A stretch of 64,000 nucleotides of DNA, taken from an uncultured Thermoanaerobaculum sp. (lineage in GTDB: Bacteria > Acidobacteriota > Thermoanaerobaculia > Thermoanaerobaculales > Thermoanaerobaculaceae). Positions 202 through 57,572 of this stretch are shown piece after piece. The number at the start of each line of letters is the position of its first letter. Positions within the stretch are counted from its first letter, which is position 1. The notes below the pieces were generated by a model. It had not been told where the DNA came from. It did not search any database and was given only the letters and a program-made list of their open reading frames with translations. Position numbers and translations under genes: made by a program. The stretch is from NCBI GenBank assembly GCA_937934115.1, contig CALHAH010000010.1, positions 1 through 64,000 of the forward strand. Direction: 5' to 3'.

Positions 202-672
202 GTGGCGACGTTGGCCCACGTGGTGCTGCTTTCGCCGGAAATTCCCTGGAACACCGGAAATGTGGGTCGTACCTGCCTGGCTTTTGGTGCCCAACTGCAC
301 TTGGTGCGGCCTTTGGGCTTTTCGTTGGCATCTTCAGCTCTGAGGAGGGCGGGCTTGGATTACTGGGAGCACGTGAACCCGTGCGTTTGGGAAAGCTTCC
401 GCTCTTTCGTGGAAGCCTTGCCCATGCTGGGTGAGGTGTTTTTTTTCTCGGCGGAGGGGGTGCATAGCGTGTTTGAGGTGCGCTTTCCGTCGCATCCGGT
501 GCTGGTCTTTGGTCGGGAATCCGTGGGTTTGCCGGAAAGCGTGCGCCAGCAATTTCGGGAAAGGCTGGTGCGCATTCCGCAAGAACCGGGGGTGGTGCGC
601 TCTTTGAACCTTTCCTCGGCGGTGGCTGTGGCCTTAGCCGAGGTTTACCGCCAACACCGGTTGCTGAAATAA
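202..672 (+). CDS. trmL: tRNA (cytidine/uridine-34-2'-O)-methyltransferase, TrmL-like SPOUT enzyme
   Basis: This is a small SpoU/SPOUT-family methyltransferase of about 156 residues, the usual size of TrmL, which 2'-O-methylates the wobble base of tRNA-Leu. Visible family motifs are the N-terminal SPEIPWNTGNVGR, the middle FGRESVGLPE and the C-terminal RSLNLSSAVAVAL, which together form the knotted SAM site. The GTG at 202 is preferred because the family begins immediately before the PEIP-NTGN motif. The open frame extends upstream to 121, but that part runs into the tandem repeat. No good Shine-Dalgarno site fixes the start. Assignment to TrmL rather than another SpoU subgroup rests on length and motifs. 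Confidence 0.85.
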   Translation: MATLAHVVLLSPEIPWNTGNVGRTCLAFGAQLHLVRPLGFSLASSALRRAGLDYWEHVNPCVWESFRSFVEALPMLGEVFFFSAEGVHSVFEVRFPSHPVLVFGRESVGLPESVRQQFRERLVRIPQEPGVVRSLNLSSAVAVALAEVYRQHRLLK

Positions 673-736
673 AACCCGATGGCGGGCGGTTGCTGGGGAT
701 AGCCCAGCGAAACCTGGGCCGGAATGGGAGGTTGGC

Positions 737-1330
737 ATGAGGCGAGCTTTACTGCTGCTGGCAGCTTACGTGGTGGCTTTTGGCGCCCACGCCCAGGAGC
801 CACAGGCGGTCTGGAACCACGACCCAGCCCACTCGTCCGTGGCTTTTGCGGTGCGGCACATGATGGTTTCCAACGTGCGCGGGGAATTCACGCGGTTTTC
901 AATTTCCGTGACCACCCTTGGCGACAAGCCAGAAACGGCGCAGGTGCAGGTGAGCATTGATTCTGATTCCATTGATACCCGTATTGCCGACCGCGACAAG
1001 CATTTGCGCTCGGCGGATTTTTTGGACGTGGAAAAGTACCCAACCATTACCTTCGTTTCGAAAAACGTGGAGGCGGCAGGTGGCGGAAGGTACCGGGTTG
1101 CCGGGGACCTCACGATTAAAGGCGTTACAAAGCCTGTGGTTTTGGAGGCGGAGGTGAGCCCGGTGATGAAGGACCCCTGGGGCAACCTGAGGGTTGGCGT
1201 CCACGCCACCACCACCATCAACCGCAAGGACTTTGGAATCGTGTGGCACAAAGTCCTGGATACTGGGGAGCTGGTTGTGGGCGACGAGGTGCGCGTGATC
1301 TTGGACGTGGAGCTGGTGCGAAAGCCCTAG
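737..1330 (+). CDS. YceI-family periplasmic lipid-binding-like protein
   Basis: The protein has 197 residues, with a signal peptide at about residues 1-20 (hydrophobic LLLLAAYVVAFGAHA then Gln). A YceI domain follows, with the typical opening WNHDPAHSSVAFAVRHMMVSN and the segments DSDSIDTRIADRDKHLRSADFLDVEKYP and VGDEVRVILDVEL. YceI proteins are secreted lipocalin-like beta barrels that bind isoprenoid or other amphipathic ligands; the physiological ligand here is unknown. The start ATG follows a GGGAGG site with good spacing. The gene sits alone between trmL and a TonB receptor. Confidence 0.9.
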   Translation: MRRALLLLAAYVVAFGAHAQEPQAVWNHDPAHSSVAFAVRHMMVSNVRGEFTRFSISVTTLGDKPETAQVQVSIDSDSIDTRIADRDKHLRSADFLDVEKYPTITFVSKNVEAAGGGRYRVAGDLTIKGVTKPVVLEAEVSPVMKDPWGNLRVGVHATTTINRKDFGIVWHKVLDTGELVVGDEVRVILDVELVRKP

Positions 1331-1418
1331 AGATACTTGGCCCGTCCAATTCGTCGAATAGCGGCAAACAAATAATTGAACAAAAGGGGACCTAGGCGCC
1401 TTGGATCCCCTCTCGTTT

Positions 1419-1435
1419 TTGGCATCACACTTGCT
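1419..1435 (+). promoter_or_regulatory. Sigma-54 (RpoN) type -24/-12 promoter candidate
   Basis: The sequence TTGGCATCACACTTGCT matches the -24/-12 consensus (YTGGCACG-N4-TTGCW) at all but two positions and has the diagnostic GG-N10-GC spacing (GG 1421-1422, GC 1433-1434). The predicted transcription start is near 1446, giving a leader of about 68 nt before the ribosome site and ATG of the TonB receptor at 1514. It lies in non-coding DNA directly upstream of a single large gene. Confidence 0.55.
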
Positions 1436-1513
1436 TGTGAAGGAACTGATGGGTGGTGTGTTTTGGAAACGGCAACAAGGAGCTGGTTTACCCAGCGGAA
1501 AGGAGGAGATGTT

Positions 1514-4474
1514 ATGAGGCGATGGCTGGTAGTTTGTTTGCTTCTGTTTTTAGGGGTGGTCTTGCCCTTGGGGGCGCAAATCCCCACCGGCAAGATTGAG
1601 GGGAAGGTACGGGATAACTCGGGGCCGCTTCCTGGTGTAACGGTCACAGTCTCGTCCCCCAGCCTCCAGGGTACACGAGCGGCAGTCAGTGGCGCCAACG
1701 GGGACTTCAGCGTTCCGCTGTTGCCCCCAGGGGAATACACGGTAAGGTTTGAGCTTTCCGGTTACCAAACCGTGGAGGAAAGGGTCAAGGTTAACGCTGC
1801 GCAGGTGACCAAGGTGGACGTGCTTTTGGAGCAAGGGACGTTCGCGGAAGAGGTGACCGTTACGGGAGCGTTTGAGCCGGTTTCCACCACCACACAAGCA
1901 GCGGTGACCTTCGAAAAGTCCTTCGTGGAAGACCTGCCGGTAGGGCGCACCCTGGCTGCTACCACGCTGCTAGCTCCCGGTGTGGCAGACACCGGACCGG
2001 GTGGAAACATCACGATTTCTGGCGCCATGTCCTATGAAAACCTGTGGTTGGTGAACGGCGTGGTGCTCAACGAGAACATCCGTGGGCAAGCGCTTCCCCT
2101 TTTCATCGAGGATGCCTTGCAGGAAACCACCGTGAGTACGGCAGGTATTTCCGCCGAGTACGGGAGGTTCTCCGGTGGTGTGATTACCGCCATTACCAAG
2201 TCCGGTGGCAACGAGTTTTCGGGGTCTTTTCGCGACTCCCTGTTCCGGGATGTTTGGCAAAAACCCACCCCCAAGACGGTGGCCCGCGACGACAAATTGA
2301 ACCACACCTACGAGGCGACGCTTGGGGGCCGCATCATTCGGGACAAGCTGTGGTTCTTTTTGGCGGGAAGGCAGCGCTCGTTGGAAAGCGCTAGCCAGAC
2401 GGCTATTACGCAAATCCCGTACAAAGTCACTGAAGAAGAGCTGCGATGGGAAGCCAAGCTCACGTATTCTTTAAACCCATCGCACCGTTTCGTGGGTTCG
2501 TACACCAAGCGTGATCGTGAGCAGGGGAACAACTCTTTTGGCACCATTATGGACCTCCGCAGCTTGTATGACCGGGAACTCCCTGAGTTCCTCATGGTCT
2601 TCAACTACAACGGCGCCATTGGCAGCAACCTCTTCGTGGAGGCGCAGTACTCCGAGCGCGAATTGAAGTTTGTGAACTCTGGTTCGCGGTACCGGGACCT
2701 GATTTACGGAACCCTGCTTTTGGACCAAGCCACCGGTCGCCGGTTTTGGAGCCCCACCTTTTGCGGTGTGTGCACCCCGGAGATTCGCGCCAACAAAAAT
2801 TATCTTGTGAAAGGCACCTACTTCTGGTCCACCGAAAAGCTGGGCTCCCACGACATTACCTTTGGTTACGACGCTTTTGACGACATTCGCGCGGCCAACA
2901 ACCACCAATCGGGTTCGGATTTCCGCATTTACCTTTCGGCCGTCATCATTGGTCAGGACGTTTATGCGCGCTTGGTGCCCAATTCCTCCTACGTCATGTG
3001 GAACCCCATCCTCAAGCCCACCAAAGGCACGGATTTCTGGACAAAGTCGTTCTACATCAACGACCGTTGGCGGCTCAACAAGAACTTTTCCTTTAACGTT
3101 GGTGTCCGCTACGACAAGAACGATGGCACCGACCAAGAGGGCAAGAAAGTCATTAAGGATTCCAAGATCAGCCCGCGTTTGGGCCTTACCTGGGATCCTA
3201 AGGGCGATGGACGCTGGGCGGTCAACGCCAGTTACGGTGTGTACGTGATGGCCATCGCCAACAGCCAGGGGGACGCCTCCTCAGCAGCTGGAAACCCCGC
3301 CATTTACACCTGGACGTACACGGGACCGGCGGTAAACGCCAACTGCTCGGCCAGCAATCCGTCGGCATGCTTGCCTACGGAGCAGGTGCTGCAGCAGTTC
3401 TGGCAGTGGTTTGATTCCATTGGTGGCACTAACAACCCCAACTACCGTTCGGTGCCCTCGATCCCCGGTGGCAATATCTTTATTTCCGAGGATATGGCAT
3501 CGCCCGACGTGCGCGAGTATCTGCTGTCATTGGCGCGCAGTTTTGGCAGCAAAGGTTCAGCGCGCCTTGATTTCATCAAGCGGAAATTTGGTGACTTTTA
3601 CGCCCAGCGCATTGACCTCACTACGGGTCAAGTAACCCTTCCCAACGGTAGGGTGGTGGATAAGGCGATGGTGGTCAACGAGGATACCTTGCTGGAACGC
3701 AAGTACGACGCGGTGCAAATCTCTGGGGACTTCCGCCCCTTCCAGCGGCTGCGCGTTGGTGGAAACTACACGTATTCCAAGGCCTACGGCAACTGGGACG
3801 GGGAAACGGGTCCCTCCGGCCCAGTGCGCTCAGGCATCCTTGAGTACCCTGAATACCGCGATGTACGGTGGTACGCGCCCAAGGGTCATTTGAGCATTGA
3901 TCAGAAGCATCGCGCTCGGTTGTGGGCCTCGTACGACATCGTCACCAGCAAGAGCCACCGTTTGAACGTGAGCTTGTTGCAAAGCTACTGGTCCGGTACC
4001 CCCTACGGTGCGGTGGGAACCATCAGCCTTATCAACCGCAACCCTGGAGGTAACAACGCGCCGTACGTGACCAACCCCGGCTACCGTAACCCGCCCACCA
4101 CGCAAACGTACTACTTCACCAACCGCGACGCCTACCGCACGCCGGATATCACCTCCACCGACATTGCTTTCAACTACTCGTTCTTTGCCGATGTCCTTGG
4201 AAGCCGGTTGGAGCTCTTCCTGCAACCGGAAGTGCGCAACGTTTTCAACCACAAGACTCCCATCTCTGTGAATACCACCGTTTTTACTCGCGCCAACCGT
4301 GCCGGCTTTGATACCTTTAACCCCTTCACGGAAACCCCGCGGGAATGCCCACAGGGGCAGTCCAACTGCGCTGGGTACCACTGGCAAAAAGGGCCTGACT
4401 TTGGCAAGCCCACCACTGCCGGTTCTTACCAGTCGCCACGAACGTTTTTGGTCTCTCTGGGTGTGCGCTTCTAG
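1514..4474 (+). CDS. TonB-dependent receptor with N-terminal carboxypeptidase-regulatory domain (Oar-like)
   Basis: This outer-membrane beta-barrel transporter has 986 residues. A signal peptide spans about residues 1-21 (LLLFLGVVLPLGAQ). A CarboxypepD_reg Ig-like domain (about 25-105, GKIEGKVRDNSG to GEYTVRFELSGYQTVEERV) is followed by a TonB plug (EEVTVTGAF, then VNGVVLNENIRG) and a long barrel ending in Phe (TFLVSLGVRF), as outer-membrane insertion signals do. The substrate is not predictable. AGGAGGAG immediately upstream of the ATG at 1514 fixes the start; an open frame back to 1376 would translate the promoter and leader. This architecture is abundant in Acidobacteriota. A strong terminator follows, so it looks monocistronic. 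Confidence 0.9.
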   Translation: MRRWLVVCLLLFLGVVLPLGAQIPTGKIEGKVRDNSGPLPGVTVTVSSPSLQGTRAAVSGANGDFSVPLLPPGEYTVRFELSGYQTVEERVKVNAAQVTKVDVLLEQGTFAEEVTVTGAFEPVSTTTQAAVTFEKSFVEDLPVGRTLAATTLLAPGVADTGPGGNITISGAMSYENLWLVNGVVLNENIRGQALPLFIEDALQETTVSTAGISAEYGRFSGGVITAITKSGGNEFSGSFRDSLFRDVWQKPTPKTVARDDKLNHTYEATLGGRIIRDKLWFFLAGRQRSLESASQTAITQIPYKVTEEELRWEAKLTYSLNPSHRFVGSYTKRDREQGNNSFGTIMDLRSLYDRELPEFLMVFNYNGAIGSNLFVEAQYSERELKFVNSGSRYRDLIYGTLLLDQATGRRFWSPTFCGVCTPEIRANKNYLVKGTYFWSTEKLGSHDITFGYDAFDDIRAANNHQSGSDFRIYLSAVIIGQDVYARLVPNSSYVMWNPILKPTKGTDFWTKSFYINDRWRLNKNFSFNVGVRYDKNDGTDQEGKKVIKDSKISPRLGLTWDPKGDGRWAVNASYGVYVMAIANSQGDASSAAGNPAIYTWTYTGPAVNANCSASNPSACLPTEQVLQQFWQWFDSIGGTNNPNYRSVPSIPGGNIFISEDMASPDVREYLLSLARSFGSKGSARLDFIKRKFGDFYAQRIDLTTGQVTLPNGRVVDKAMVVNEDTLLERKYDAVQISGDFRPFQRLRVGGNYTYSKAYGNWDGETGPSGPVRSGILEYPEYRDVRWYAPKGHLSIDQKHRARLWASYDIVTSKSHRLNVSLLQSYWSGTPYGAVGTISLINRNPGGNNAPYVTNPGYRNPPTTQTYYFTNRDAYRTPDITSTDIAFNYSFFADVLGSRLELFLQPEVRNVFNHKTPISVNTTVFTRANRAGFDTFNPFTETPRECPQGQSNCAGYHWQKGPDFGKPTTAGSYQSPRTFLVSLGVRF

Positions 4475-4493
4475 CGACGCCTGCTCGCAGGGG

Positions 4494-4526
4494 AAGCCCC
4501 GCCTGGCGGCGGGGCTTTTCTTTTTT
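4494..4526 (+). terminator. Rho-independent terminator after the TonB receptor
   Basis: A perfect 10-bp stem (AAGCCCCGCC at 4494-4503 with GGCGGGGCTT at 4508-4517) and a TGGC loop are followed by TTTTCTTTTTT. It starts 19 bp after the receptor stop codon. Confidence 0.92.
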
Positions 4527-5012
4527 GGCGAGAAGGTCTTTGGCTTAAAGTTGTGACTCGCTGCCTTGCTCTTGTGCAGGTTCGGCTGTCATTTGCGGCA
4601 CAGGGATGTTCAGCCGGGCGCAAACACGGCCAAAAACCAGGTTTCGTCAGCAACAGGCCCCACCGTGAACGCTTCAGGGATGACGGCCAGGGCCAAGCAA
4701 GCCCCAAGGCATGGGAGCTGGAGGGAGCTGGGCAGAAAGAGCGTACATAGCAGAATCCCGGAAAACGGGTCTTTAGGACATGAGAAGGCCGCCGCCAAGC
4801 GTGCCACGACGCCACCCCGCATCGCCACCTGCGCTTGGTGCTCATTTTCCCTCGGCAAAAAACCCCCTTCCTGTCCTACCGCGCTGTGAAGTTTTGCGGC
4901 CGAAAAAAGCCCACCGGTTTTTCCCTTGGGAGAGTTTTCCCGTTGTCAGGCTCTTCACGCCAGGCCCGCATGGGTTGTTGCTACGCCTTGGGGAAGAGGG
5001 TACTTTTGCACG
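4527..5012. other. Non-coding or uncharacterised gap between the TonB receptor and queA
   Basis: No confident gene is seen in about 485 bp. On the minus strand, 4610-4822 (ATG) or 4610-4858 (TTG) encodes a hydrophobic, Cys-containing stretch of 70-82 residues, including LCTLFLPSSL and CLALAVIPEA. It reads like a membrane-protein fragment but matches no family I recognise and ends abruptly. Short plus-strand frames look random. It may be a decayed gene or a long queA leader; no riboswitch-like fold was identified. Confidence 0.3.
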
Positions 5013-55763: not shown

Positions 55764-57572
55764 ATGCTCTTGCTTTCAGTTGAAGCGGAAAACGGGGCCA
55801 CTCTCACGTACCGTTTGCAGAAGAGCCGCATTGCCGTGGGTTCGGCGCCCAGTAACGACGTGGTGGTTACGGGTCCTGGTGTGGGTGATCGCCATTTGAT
55901 CATTCAACGTAGCGGCGACGCCTTTACCTTTGTTACCGCCGAGCGGCAGACAGTGGTTTTGAACGGTGAGCGGCGGTCCCGGGGTGTTCTGAACCCAGGG
56001 GACCGGCTGCGCGTGGGAGCGGTAACCCTCATTTTTCGGGGTATGGTGGGTGGCGAATTGGCCTTAAGCGAGGACGAGCCTCCGCGACCGCCAAAAACCT
56101 CAGTGCCCTCCACCGCTGAATCGGTTCTCGTGCGGCCCGAGCCCGGAGGGTTTTCCCAAGCTCGCCTGCGCCTTTTGGAGCTGTTTGCCCAAAACCGCCC
56201 GGATCGCACCCATCAGCTCATAGGCATTCTGCGCGAGGCCTTAGGGGAGGCGGAGTTTGCCTTGGTCATTCCACGAGAAGGTGGGGGACCGGCAGCAGAA
56301 GGCGCGGTGCTTGCCTCTTTGTGGAGTGGTGAGCTGCCGCAGGTACCGGCTTCAGTGCTTCGAGAGCTTGCCGCTCCTGGGAAGTTCGTGATTCAAGGCG
56401 GTGCCAAGGACGGCGGCACGGCCTTCGTGGCTGTGCGTACGCCGGCGGGTTCTCTCGTGGCCTTGGTGCTCGCCCGACCGGTGGGTGCCCTGGGCGATGA
56501 GGGGGTGGCGCTGGTAGCAGAAGCGGCGCGCCTTTTGGGCCTCTTTTGGGAGCAGGTGGAGCGCTTGGATGCAAGCTTTTCCAGCTGGGAGCTGGAGGCC
56601 CGGCATCGCCTCGAGGCTTTGCTTCCGGGCACCTCACAAGCCATCCAGGTGCTGCGGGATGGTCTTCTGCAAGCGGCCCGTGGTCTGGAGCCGGTGTTAA
56701 TTTGTGGCGCTCCCGGATCCGGGCGTACGGAAACTGCTCGCATCTTAGCTACTCTCGGGCCAGTAGCGGGGCGTCGGGTGGTGATCTTTGAGGGGCGCGA
56801 TGCTCCTTTGGACGTCCTGCGGCAAGAGCTTTTTGGTCCTGCGGGCAAGCCCACCTTTACGGGTAGTATGGGTGGCTTGGTGGGTGAGGCTCGGGGCGGG
56901 CTGTTGGTGGTTCGCAACGTGGAGCTACTTCCTGAACCCGTGCAAACGGAGTTGGTGGGTGTTGTTAAAACCCAAAGCCAGCAGCCTCTCTCTTCCACAA
57001 CCACCCGTTGGGTGGTGACCTGCGGTGAAGACCCCTTGGCTTTGGTGCAGCAGGGCAAGTTTTTATCGGCTTTGTTCATGGTGTTTTCCTCGAGAATGCT
57101 ACGGGTGCCGCGGCTGGAGGAACGAAGGGAAGACTTGCCTTTAATTGTCGCTTCCCTGTTGCGGCGGGTGGCGGCGGAGCAGGGGAAAAACGTCCGTGGC
57201 ATCACCGTGGAGTGCTTGAACACGCTTCTATCCCGGCCTTTTCCTGGGCAAATGGCCGAGCTCGTGGGAGAGTTGCGACGGTTGACGGCAGCCACCGCCG
57301 ATGGGGACATGGTGCGCTGCGATGAGCACGTGACTATGGGAGCCGCCAAGAGCGCTGGGGTTGAAGGTGCCGAGATCTTGCTTGCGGACAACCTTAAAGA
57401 GGTGGTACCCAAGGTGGAGCAGCTCATCATTGACCGTGTCATGCGCAGGGTCAAGGGCAATCAATCCAAAGGCGCGAGGATACTGGGAATTTCCCGTGGT
57501 GCGCTGATCGCCAAGCTTAAGGAGTACAACATCCCTGACTACCGTTACCTCAGACGACGGCGGGCAATTTAA
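55764..57572 (+). CDS. FHA-domain protein with degenerate sigma-54-activator AAA domain and Fis-type HTH
   Basis: The protein has 602 residues. Residues 1-95 form an FHA phosphopeptide-binding domain (VGSAPSNDVVV, GDRHLIIQ), although the usual RxxxS of FHA reads GS and GDRH. A GAF-like region (about 130-280) and an AAA+ domain of the NtrC type (about 285-520) follow. Within it the P-loop reads GAPGSGRT (Lys to Arg321), GAFTGA reads PTFTGS and Walker B GTLFLDE reads GGLLVVRN. The C-terminal Fis HTH (MRRVKGNQSKGARILGISRGALIAKL) is intact. It likely binds DNA and phosphopeptides but not as an ordinary ATP-driven sigma-54 activator. GGAGGG lies upstream of the ATG. Confidence 0.9.
   Translation: MLLLSVEAENGATLTYRLQKSRIAVGSAPSNDVVVTGPGVGDRHLIIQRSGDAFTFVTAERQTVVLNGERRSRGVLNPGDRLRVGAVTLIFRGMVGGELALSEDEPPRPPKTSVPSTAESVLVRPEPGGFSQARLRLLELFAQNRPDRTHQLIGILREALGEAEFALVIPREGGGPAAEGAVLASLWSGELPQVPASVLRELAAPGKFVIQGGAKDGGTAFVAVRTPAGSLVALVLARPVGALGDEGVALVAEAARLLGLFWEQVERLDASFSSWELEARHRLEALLPGTSQAIQVLRDGLLQAARGLEPVLICGAPGSGRTETARILATLGPVAGRRVVIFEGRDAPLDVLRQELFGPAGKPTFTGSMGGLVGEARGGLLVVRNVELLPEPVQTELVGVVKTQSQQPLSSTTTRWVVTCGEDPLALVQQGKFLSALFMVFSSRMLRVPRLEERREDLPLIVASLLRRVAAEQGKNVRGITVECLNTLLSRPFPGQMAELVGELRRLTAATADGDMVRCDEHVTMGAAKSAGVEGAEILLADNLKEVVPKVEQLIIDRVMRRVKGNQSKGARILGISRGALIAKLKEYNIPDYRYLRRRRAI

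Follow-up and report, generated by a model that had tools for sequence, protein, structure and literature searches.

Sigma-54 promoter and paired enhancer dyads before an Oar-like TonB-dependent receptor gene, and a candidate kinase-activator pair for their control

Results

The receptor locus and its promoter

We examined the surroundings of a TonB-dependent receptor gene in a 64-kb stretch of DNA (the window, in its full length) from a genome of 2.42 Mb in 52 contigs. The features discussed here are listed below; dyad positions count from the first base of the promoter.

1344-1359, + strand: dyad A, GTCC-aattcgtc-GAAT, perfect (8/8 positions), at -75, as in relatives
1366-1381, + strand: dyad B, weak, AAAC-aaataatt-GAAC, 6/8 positions by eye, at -53
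1385-1419, + strand: weak hairpin (1385-1411) and T-run, -13.8 kcal/mol, z -0.90
1419-1435, + strand: sigma-54 (-24/-12) promoter, TTGGCATCACACTTGCT, 12/12 specified positions, conserved in relatives
1446, + strand: predicted transcription start
1514-4474, + strand: Oar-like TonB-dependent receptor, 986 aa, CarboxypepD_reg and OMP_b-brl_4 barrel
4491-4525, + strand: intrinsic terminator of the receptor gene; strong hairpin and T-run at 4476-4525, -27.9 kcal/mol, z -2.57
55764-57569: FHA protein, with FHA, degenerate sigma-54 AAA and HTH_8 domains

The receptor scored over the cut-off for PF13620, PF25183 and PF00593 (a carboxypeptidase-regulatory domain and a TonB-dependent barrel), and its ATG (1514) has a good ribosome-binding site in front. 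A sequence-only reading of the window had described this receptor as solitary and followed by a strong terminator, and both points held: SpoU-type and YceI genes lie 5', the genes 3' are read as QueA-like and PepF-like, and the terminator is the strong hairpin listed above. No substrate clue was found in the gene neighbourhood. From the Pfam architecture, we take the receptor to be kin to Oar of Myxococcus xanthus, which is likewise a TonB-dependent transporter. Oar has been reported to be required for the secretion of the protease PopC (PMC6434023).

The promoter has GG and GC exactly 10 bases apart (GG-N10-GC) and starts 95 nt 5' of the receptor ATG, within the 183-nt gap that follows yceI (737-1330); the near-consensus sigma-54 promoter proposed in the non-coding stretch before the receptor is thus borne out in sequence, spacing and place. 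It was the sole match to YTGGCAYN5TTGCW without mismatch in the window. With up to two mismatches there were 43 matches against 40.4 expected, and because these loose matches are near chance level, only the strict match is informative. Across the genome, TGGCAYN5TTGCW was found 15 times, compared with 7 for the reversed pattern. We found no sigma-70-like promoter at 600-5000, where 1.5 are expected by chance. The T-run of the weak hairpin, possibly the terminator of yceI, abuts the promoter, and transcription presumably starts at 1446, following the -24/-12 convention. The rpoN gene, for which the sequence-only reading had suggested looking, is present in the genome, with the activator-interacting, core-binding and DNA-binding domains all there.

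Elsewhere in this genome, a sigma-54-like site (L006, G000:C13:42551) lies before a small ORF that by eye resembles an NHLP-type leader peptide, with an activator gene some 2 kb away on that contig. Another (L010, G000:C22:54443) closely follows an activator gene and precedes what may be, also by eye, a Rieske-type gene.

Conservation of the promoter among receptor relatives

Every one of the 17 family genomes contains relatives of the receptor. Of 35 rows scoring 600 bits or more, 32 were tested (L069, L090 and G007:C227 came without upstream sequence); L083 and L098, which fell between score classes, were excluded. A promoter was called where GG-N10-GC fitted at least 10/12 positions at most 400 nt upstream. 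It was detected in 23 of these 32 close relatives (18 of them with at least 11/12 positions), against a shuffle mean of 0.95 and a maximum of 4, so the promoter in the window is not a product of chance; the controls gave 3 on the other strand and 1/29 inside receptor genes. The nearest orthologue carries TTGGCATACCGCTTGCT at -93, compared with -95 in the window, and the promoter and the dyads described below are conserved in fixed spacing among relatives of 44–85% identity. The promoter was not found in the remaining 9 of 32 close relatives, including L093, which starts 145 nt after another receptor match and may be read together with it.

A PF25183 search of this genome recovered 7 receptors, 6 of them with a readable upstream region. 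The scan of Oar-like receptors for the motif that the sequence-only reading had suggested was positive in part: the site is present in 2 of the 6 (contig C10, which is the window, and C51) and, together with a dyad, before a further receptor on C50 of which the contig end leaves only the N-terminus, and it is absent from the other 4 readable ones. A GGDEF-domain gene (L158:11052-12671; G000:C50:25052-26671) lies directly 5' of the C50 receptor promoter, and a similar gene ends before several relatives' receptors.

Among 34 distant receptors, a selection from a longer list of matches, the site occurred in 13 (1.56 expected); at L112 and L092 it came without a dyad and may be due to chance. A wider scan covered 76 of 80 receptor loci, 4 having too little upstream sequence. 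Promoter and dyads were in place in 17, all from family genomes already counted, which adds no independent support. In receptors outside the order the arrangement was mostly absent.

Enhancer dyads upstream of the promoters

Side-by-side comparison of the upstream sequences revealed two 16-bp dyads, RTYC-N8-GRAY, at set positions upstream of these promoters, a feature that the sequence-only reading did not contain. We counted RTYC-N-GRAY with spacers from 3 to 15 within 180 nt of 36 promoters. Spacer 8 alone stood far above chance, with a perfect dyad in 31/36 (1.7 expected); spacer 12 gave 8 against 1.2. The search was blind to position, and the perfect dyads clustered at -76 to -73 and at -55 to -53, about two DNA turns apart. 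When a dyad was called at 7/8 positions or more, the outer one was present in 22 and the inner one in 21 of the 23 promoter-bearing close relatives (0.42 and 0.27 expected, respectively). The second receptor type, represented by C51 in this genome, has its dyads at -98 and -78. In the window, dyad B follows dyad A by 22 bp, as in the nearest orthologue; what backs it is solely its position, at which relatives carry a good dyad. With dyad B fitting at only 6/8 positions, the window goes undetected by strict tandem patterns.

The combination of one dyad and the promoter was found in 65 rows across the 17 family genomes (some promoters appearing twice); the reversed pattern gave 7. Judged by coordinates, receptor genes follow 42 of the rows, 1 row (G006:C102) runs into a contig end and 22 lie elsewhere. 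In this genome the combination marks three receptors: those of the window and of C51, and the truncated one of C50. The dyad pair was absent at the 13 other sigma-54-like sites of this genome, 2 of which have a lone perfect dyad, at -122 and -44. Judged by its sequence, 1419-1435 is a genuine sigma-54 promoter and has an enhancer upstream, the site itself being confirmed, and the conserved promoter and paired enhancer sites strongly support the activator-dependent sigma-54 control of the receptor that had been proposed.

A kinase-activator operon carrying the same dyads

The genome contains 19 matches to the sigma-54 activator domain, 14 of them complete according to score and length. The activator on C50 combines receiver, AAA and HTH domains, has the GAFTGA motif, and its gene (G000:C50:6333-7745) follows one for a histidine kinase. 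This order, kinase gene first, holds in 16/16 relatives examined, where the activators are 77–96% identical (two are cut by contig ends), and an activator orthologue is present in 17/17 family genomes. Contig C50 contains one strict tandem dyad pair, at 3585-3619, located at the kinase gene start, and this pair was the only one that a pattern search across the entire genome recovered. The pair was detected in 12 of the 13 readable family kinase upstream regions (shuffles 0.69) and, at a stricter level, in 11 (shuffles 0.07), with a spacing of 19 in 11 regions and 18 in 1; the one miss, L310, has a partial dyad visible by eye. The 19 activator-domain loci here, covered to about 1.5 kb around each AAA domain (65.8 kb in total, some kinase starts lying outside), gave no pair at the level used. 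From the dyads on its own operon we infer that the C50 activator binds them.

An exact TATAAT lies inside the dyad pair in 6/13 family kinase regions, and in most of these regions the start codon falls within dyad B (e.g. GTCCggaaattcGGATataATCCggaacaatGGAC). This suggests that the family's own-operon dyads probably repress a sigma-70 promoter.

The kinase has an N-terminal PDZ domain flanked by hydrophobic segments, further transmembrane-like segments, weak GAF/PAS matches, and HisKA and HATPase domains. The PDZ domain, probably periplasmic, passed a Pfam threshold in 4 of the 6 family orthologues scanned, the other 2 scoring below it. Against NCBIfam, the C50 activator reached no cut-off among the 25/121 models listed (NtrC, AtoC, ZraR, NtrX and others). 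Assignment to a named activator family was rejected, since none of the 10/14 activators scanned reached a cut-off among the models listed. The recognition helix (RPSTLNEMIRRL in the family, KPTTLHEMMKRL outside) is conserved and differs from those of this genome's other activators.

Among the matches listed, a receptor lies within 25 kb of the activator at 5/17 C50-type places compared with 3/133 places of other activators (p 5e-4), and within 20 kb at 4/17 compared with 3/133 (p 0.003). We do not rely on this linkage by itself, given inherited gene order, short contigs and the restriction to the matches listed. No dyad receptor was found on the three family contigs that reach 16–19 kb downstream of the activator.

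Occurrence beyond the family

Activator orthologues were defined by E < 1e-130, this genome's paralogues reaching 1e-120 at best. They occur in 137 of the 145 genomes sampled from the class and in 62/99 of a phylum sample (53/90 outside the class). Of 20 kinase regions fetched from outside the family, 17 were usable (L358, L361 and L372 were not). A sigma-54 site was present in 13 of the 17 (0.61 expected), accompanied by a perfect dyad in 9 (0.03 expected), and the dyads typically lie at -93/-94 and -75/-76. Of the 4 regions without a sigma-54 site, three come from a sister family in the same order and the fourth does not; the sister-family operons (L366-L368) show neither a sigma-54 site nor the expected dyad pair.

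Strict tandem dyads, searched without the promoter in the 17 family genomes, occurred at 36 places, against 3 for the reversed pattern: 17 receptors, 10 kinase operons and 9 places near which neither type of gene was matched (five of the receptors and seven of the kinase operons being assigned by coordinates). Two dyads with a -24/-12 site, under strict settings in the 145 genomes, gave 35 places, compared with 1 for the reversed pattern: 15 receptors of the family, 2 of the sister family, 11 kinase-activator operons and 7 others. These sequence statistics establish the promoter and the dyads, the fixed geometry in which they stand, and their concentration at receptors and at the C50-type operon. 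A conserved small ORF of 71–79 aa is also preceded by a dyad pair together with a sigma-54-like site (L386, G109:C75; L387, G110:C93), and L388 (G112:C246) probably has the same arrangement.

Across the class, one dyad with the promoter also recovered many places of another type, GTCC...GGAC. In the 20 stretches fetched, these lie mostly before small exported or VWA-like proteins, and 2 of the 20 are receptors, both from the family. In other genomes of the class (L277-L291) we observed GTCC...GGAC, often as GTCCTC-N4-GAGGAC, before sigma-54 sites. The GTCC...GGAC dyads are a different regulon.

Alternative explanations

The sigma-54-like sequence could have arisen by chance, with transcription of the receptor gene coming from a different promoter or by read-through from yceI. 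Loose matches in the window are indeed at chance level and 9/32 relatives have no site, but promoter and dyads keep their fixed spacing in relatives as distant as 44% identity, the search at 600-5000 found no sigma-70-like site, and a weak hairpin stands between yceI and the promoter; we regard such a coincidence as very improbable. The sequence-only reading had also tentatively linked the FHA protein to a sigma-54 network. This protein is on the same contig as the receptor and has a sigma-54 activator-type domain and HTH_8, yet its sigma-54-contacting loop is degenerate (by eye, FTGS instead of GAFTGA), it lies more than 50 kb from the receptor, and at the level used the dyad pair was found neither in its locus nor in the whole window. 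A different activator has the dyads on its own operon. The link was not upheld, and we rejected the FHA protein as the receptor's activator; a role for it as activator or co-activator has, in our view, a negligible chance of being right.

A more serious alternative accepts promoter and enhancer and assigns the dyads to another of the 14 complete activators, with the C50 operon as one of its targets. The number of full-length activator domains leaves room for this, as does an activator type without recognisable HTH that lies about 10 kb from a C51-type receptor in two genomes (G016:C208 and G015:C11). Against it, the pair tracks the C50-type operon in 12/13 family genomes, dyads with a sigma-54 promoter stand on that operon in many genomes outside, no pair turned up at the level used in the surveyed 1.5 kb around the other AAA domains, and the whole genome has no other strict pair. 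We consider it unlikely that another activator is the one that binds.

Discussion

Control by the C50 pair is the reading that we favour: probably, the C50 kinase and activator switch on Oar-like receptors through the dyads and sigma-54, and regulate themselves. Counting against this reading are the weak dyad B of the window, the 9/32 close relatives that have no promoter, the strict hits on neither receptors nor kinase operons (9/36 and 7/35), the receptors outside the order, the three sister-family operons and the three family contigs with no dyad receptor downstream of the activator. The steps beyond the DNA sites are modelled on NtrC biology. The membrane histidine kinase would sense a signal and phosphorylate the NtrC-family response regulator, which would assemble on the two tandem RTYC-N8-GRAY dyads, reach the sigma-54 polymerase by DNA looping and open the promoter at 1419-1435, with a transcript starting near 1446. 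Promoters of a small number of further Oar-like TonB-dependent receptors would be opened by the same regulator. Its own operon, in most genomes outside the order, has a sigma-54 promoter with dyads at -94/-75, which would give positive feedback; in the window's family, the dyads overlap both the start codon and a sigma-70-like -10 box and would probably repress. Protein-DNA contact, phosphorylation, the sign of autoregulation and the signal are all inferred.

NtrB/NtrC-type two-component systems such as NtrC, AtoC and ZraR likewise consist of a kinase and a receiver-AAA(GAFTGA)-Fis HTH regulator, with tandem dyads upstream of -24/-12 promoters and self-regulation. Unlike these, the C50 kinase has a PDZ domain, and the targets are TonB-dependent receptors. 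We file the circuit as a new regulon of the NtrC-family enhancer-dependent type. Sigma-54 has been described as a controller of the bacterial exterior (PMC3162934), a theme shared by the outer-membrane gene found here under sigma-54; the text of that article has no match for Acidobacteria, Solibacter, Koribacter or TonB. A comparative study of sigma-54 regulons from 2025 predicted sites across phyla (PMC12316311). It lists TonB (COG0810) as enriched in Flavobacteriia, an unconfirmed point in a passage that names TonB itself and not the receptors, and its main text has no match for Acidobacteria or Holophagae. Neither an earlier report of the circuit nor a study of the C50-type activator was found in the titles and abstract openings of the open-access literature.

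A bolder reading, which we offer as speculation with little probability behind it, is that the PDZ domain reads the state of the outer membrane and sets the number of large TonB-dependent receptors through sigma-54, and that the window's order has replaced sigma-54 self-activation of the pair by a sigma-70 promoter with overlapping sites. The PDZ domain of DegS reads the C-termini of unassembled barrels. If the feedback reading were true, this would be an outer-membrane feedback circuit, with, for example, such C-termini as its cue.

The circuit of kinase, activator, dyads, promoter and receptor is directly testable. An activator common to 137/145 genomes of the class gains a DNA motif, a type of target gene and a pattern of self-regulation, and within one class the promoter of the pair itself seems to have switched type.
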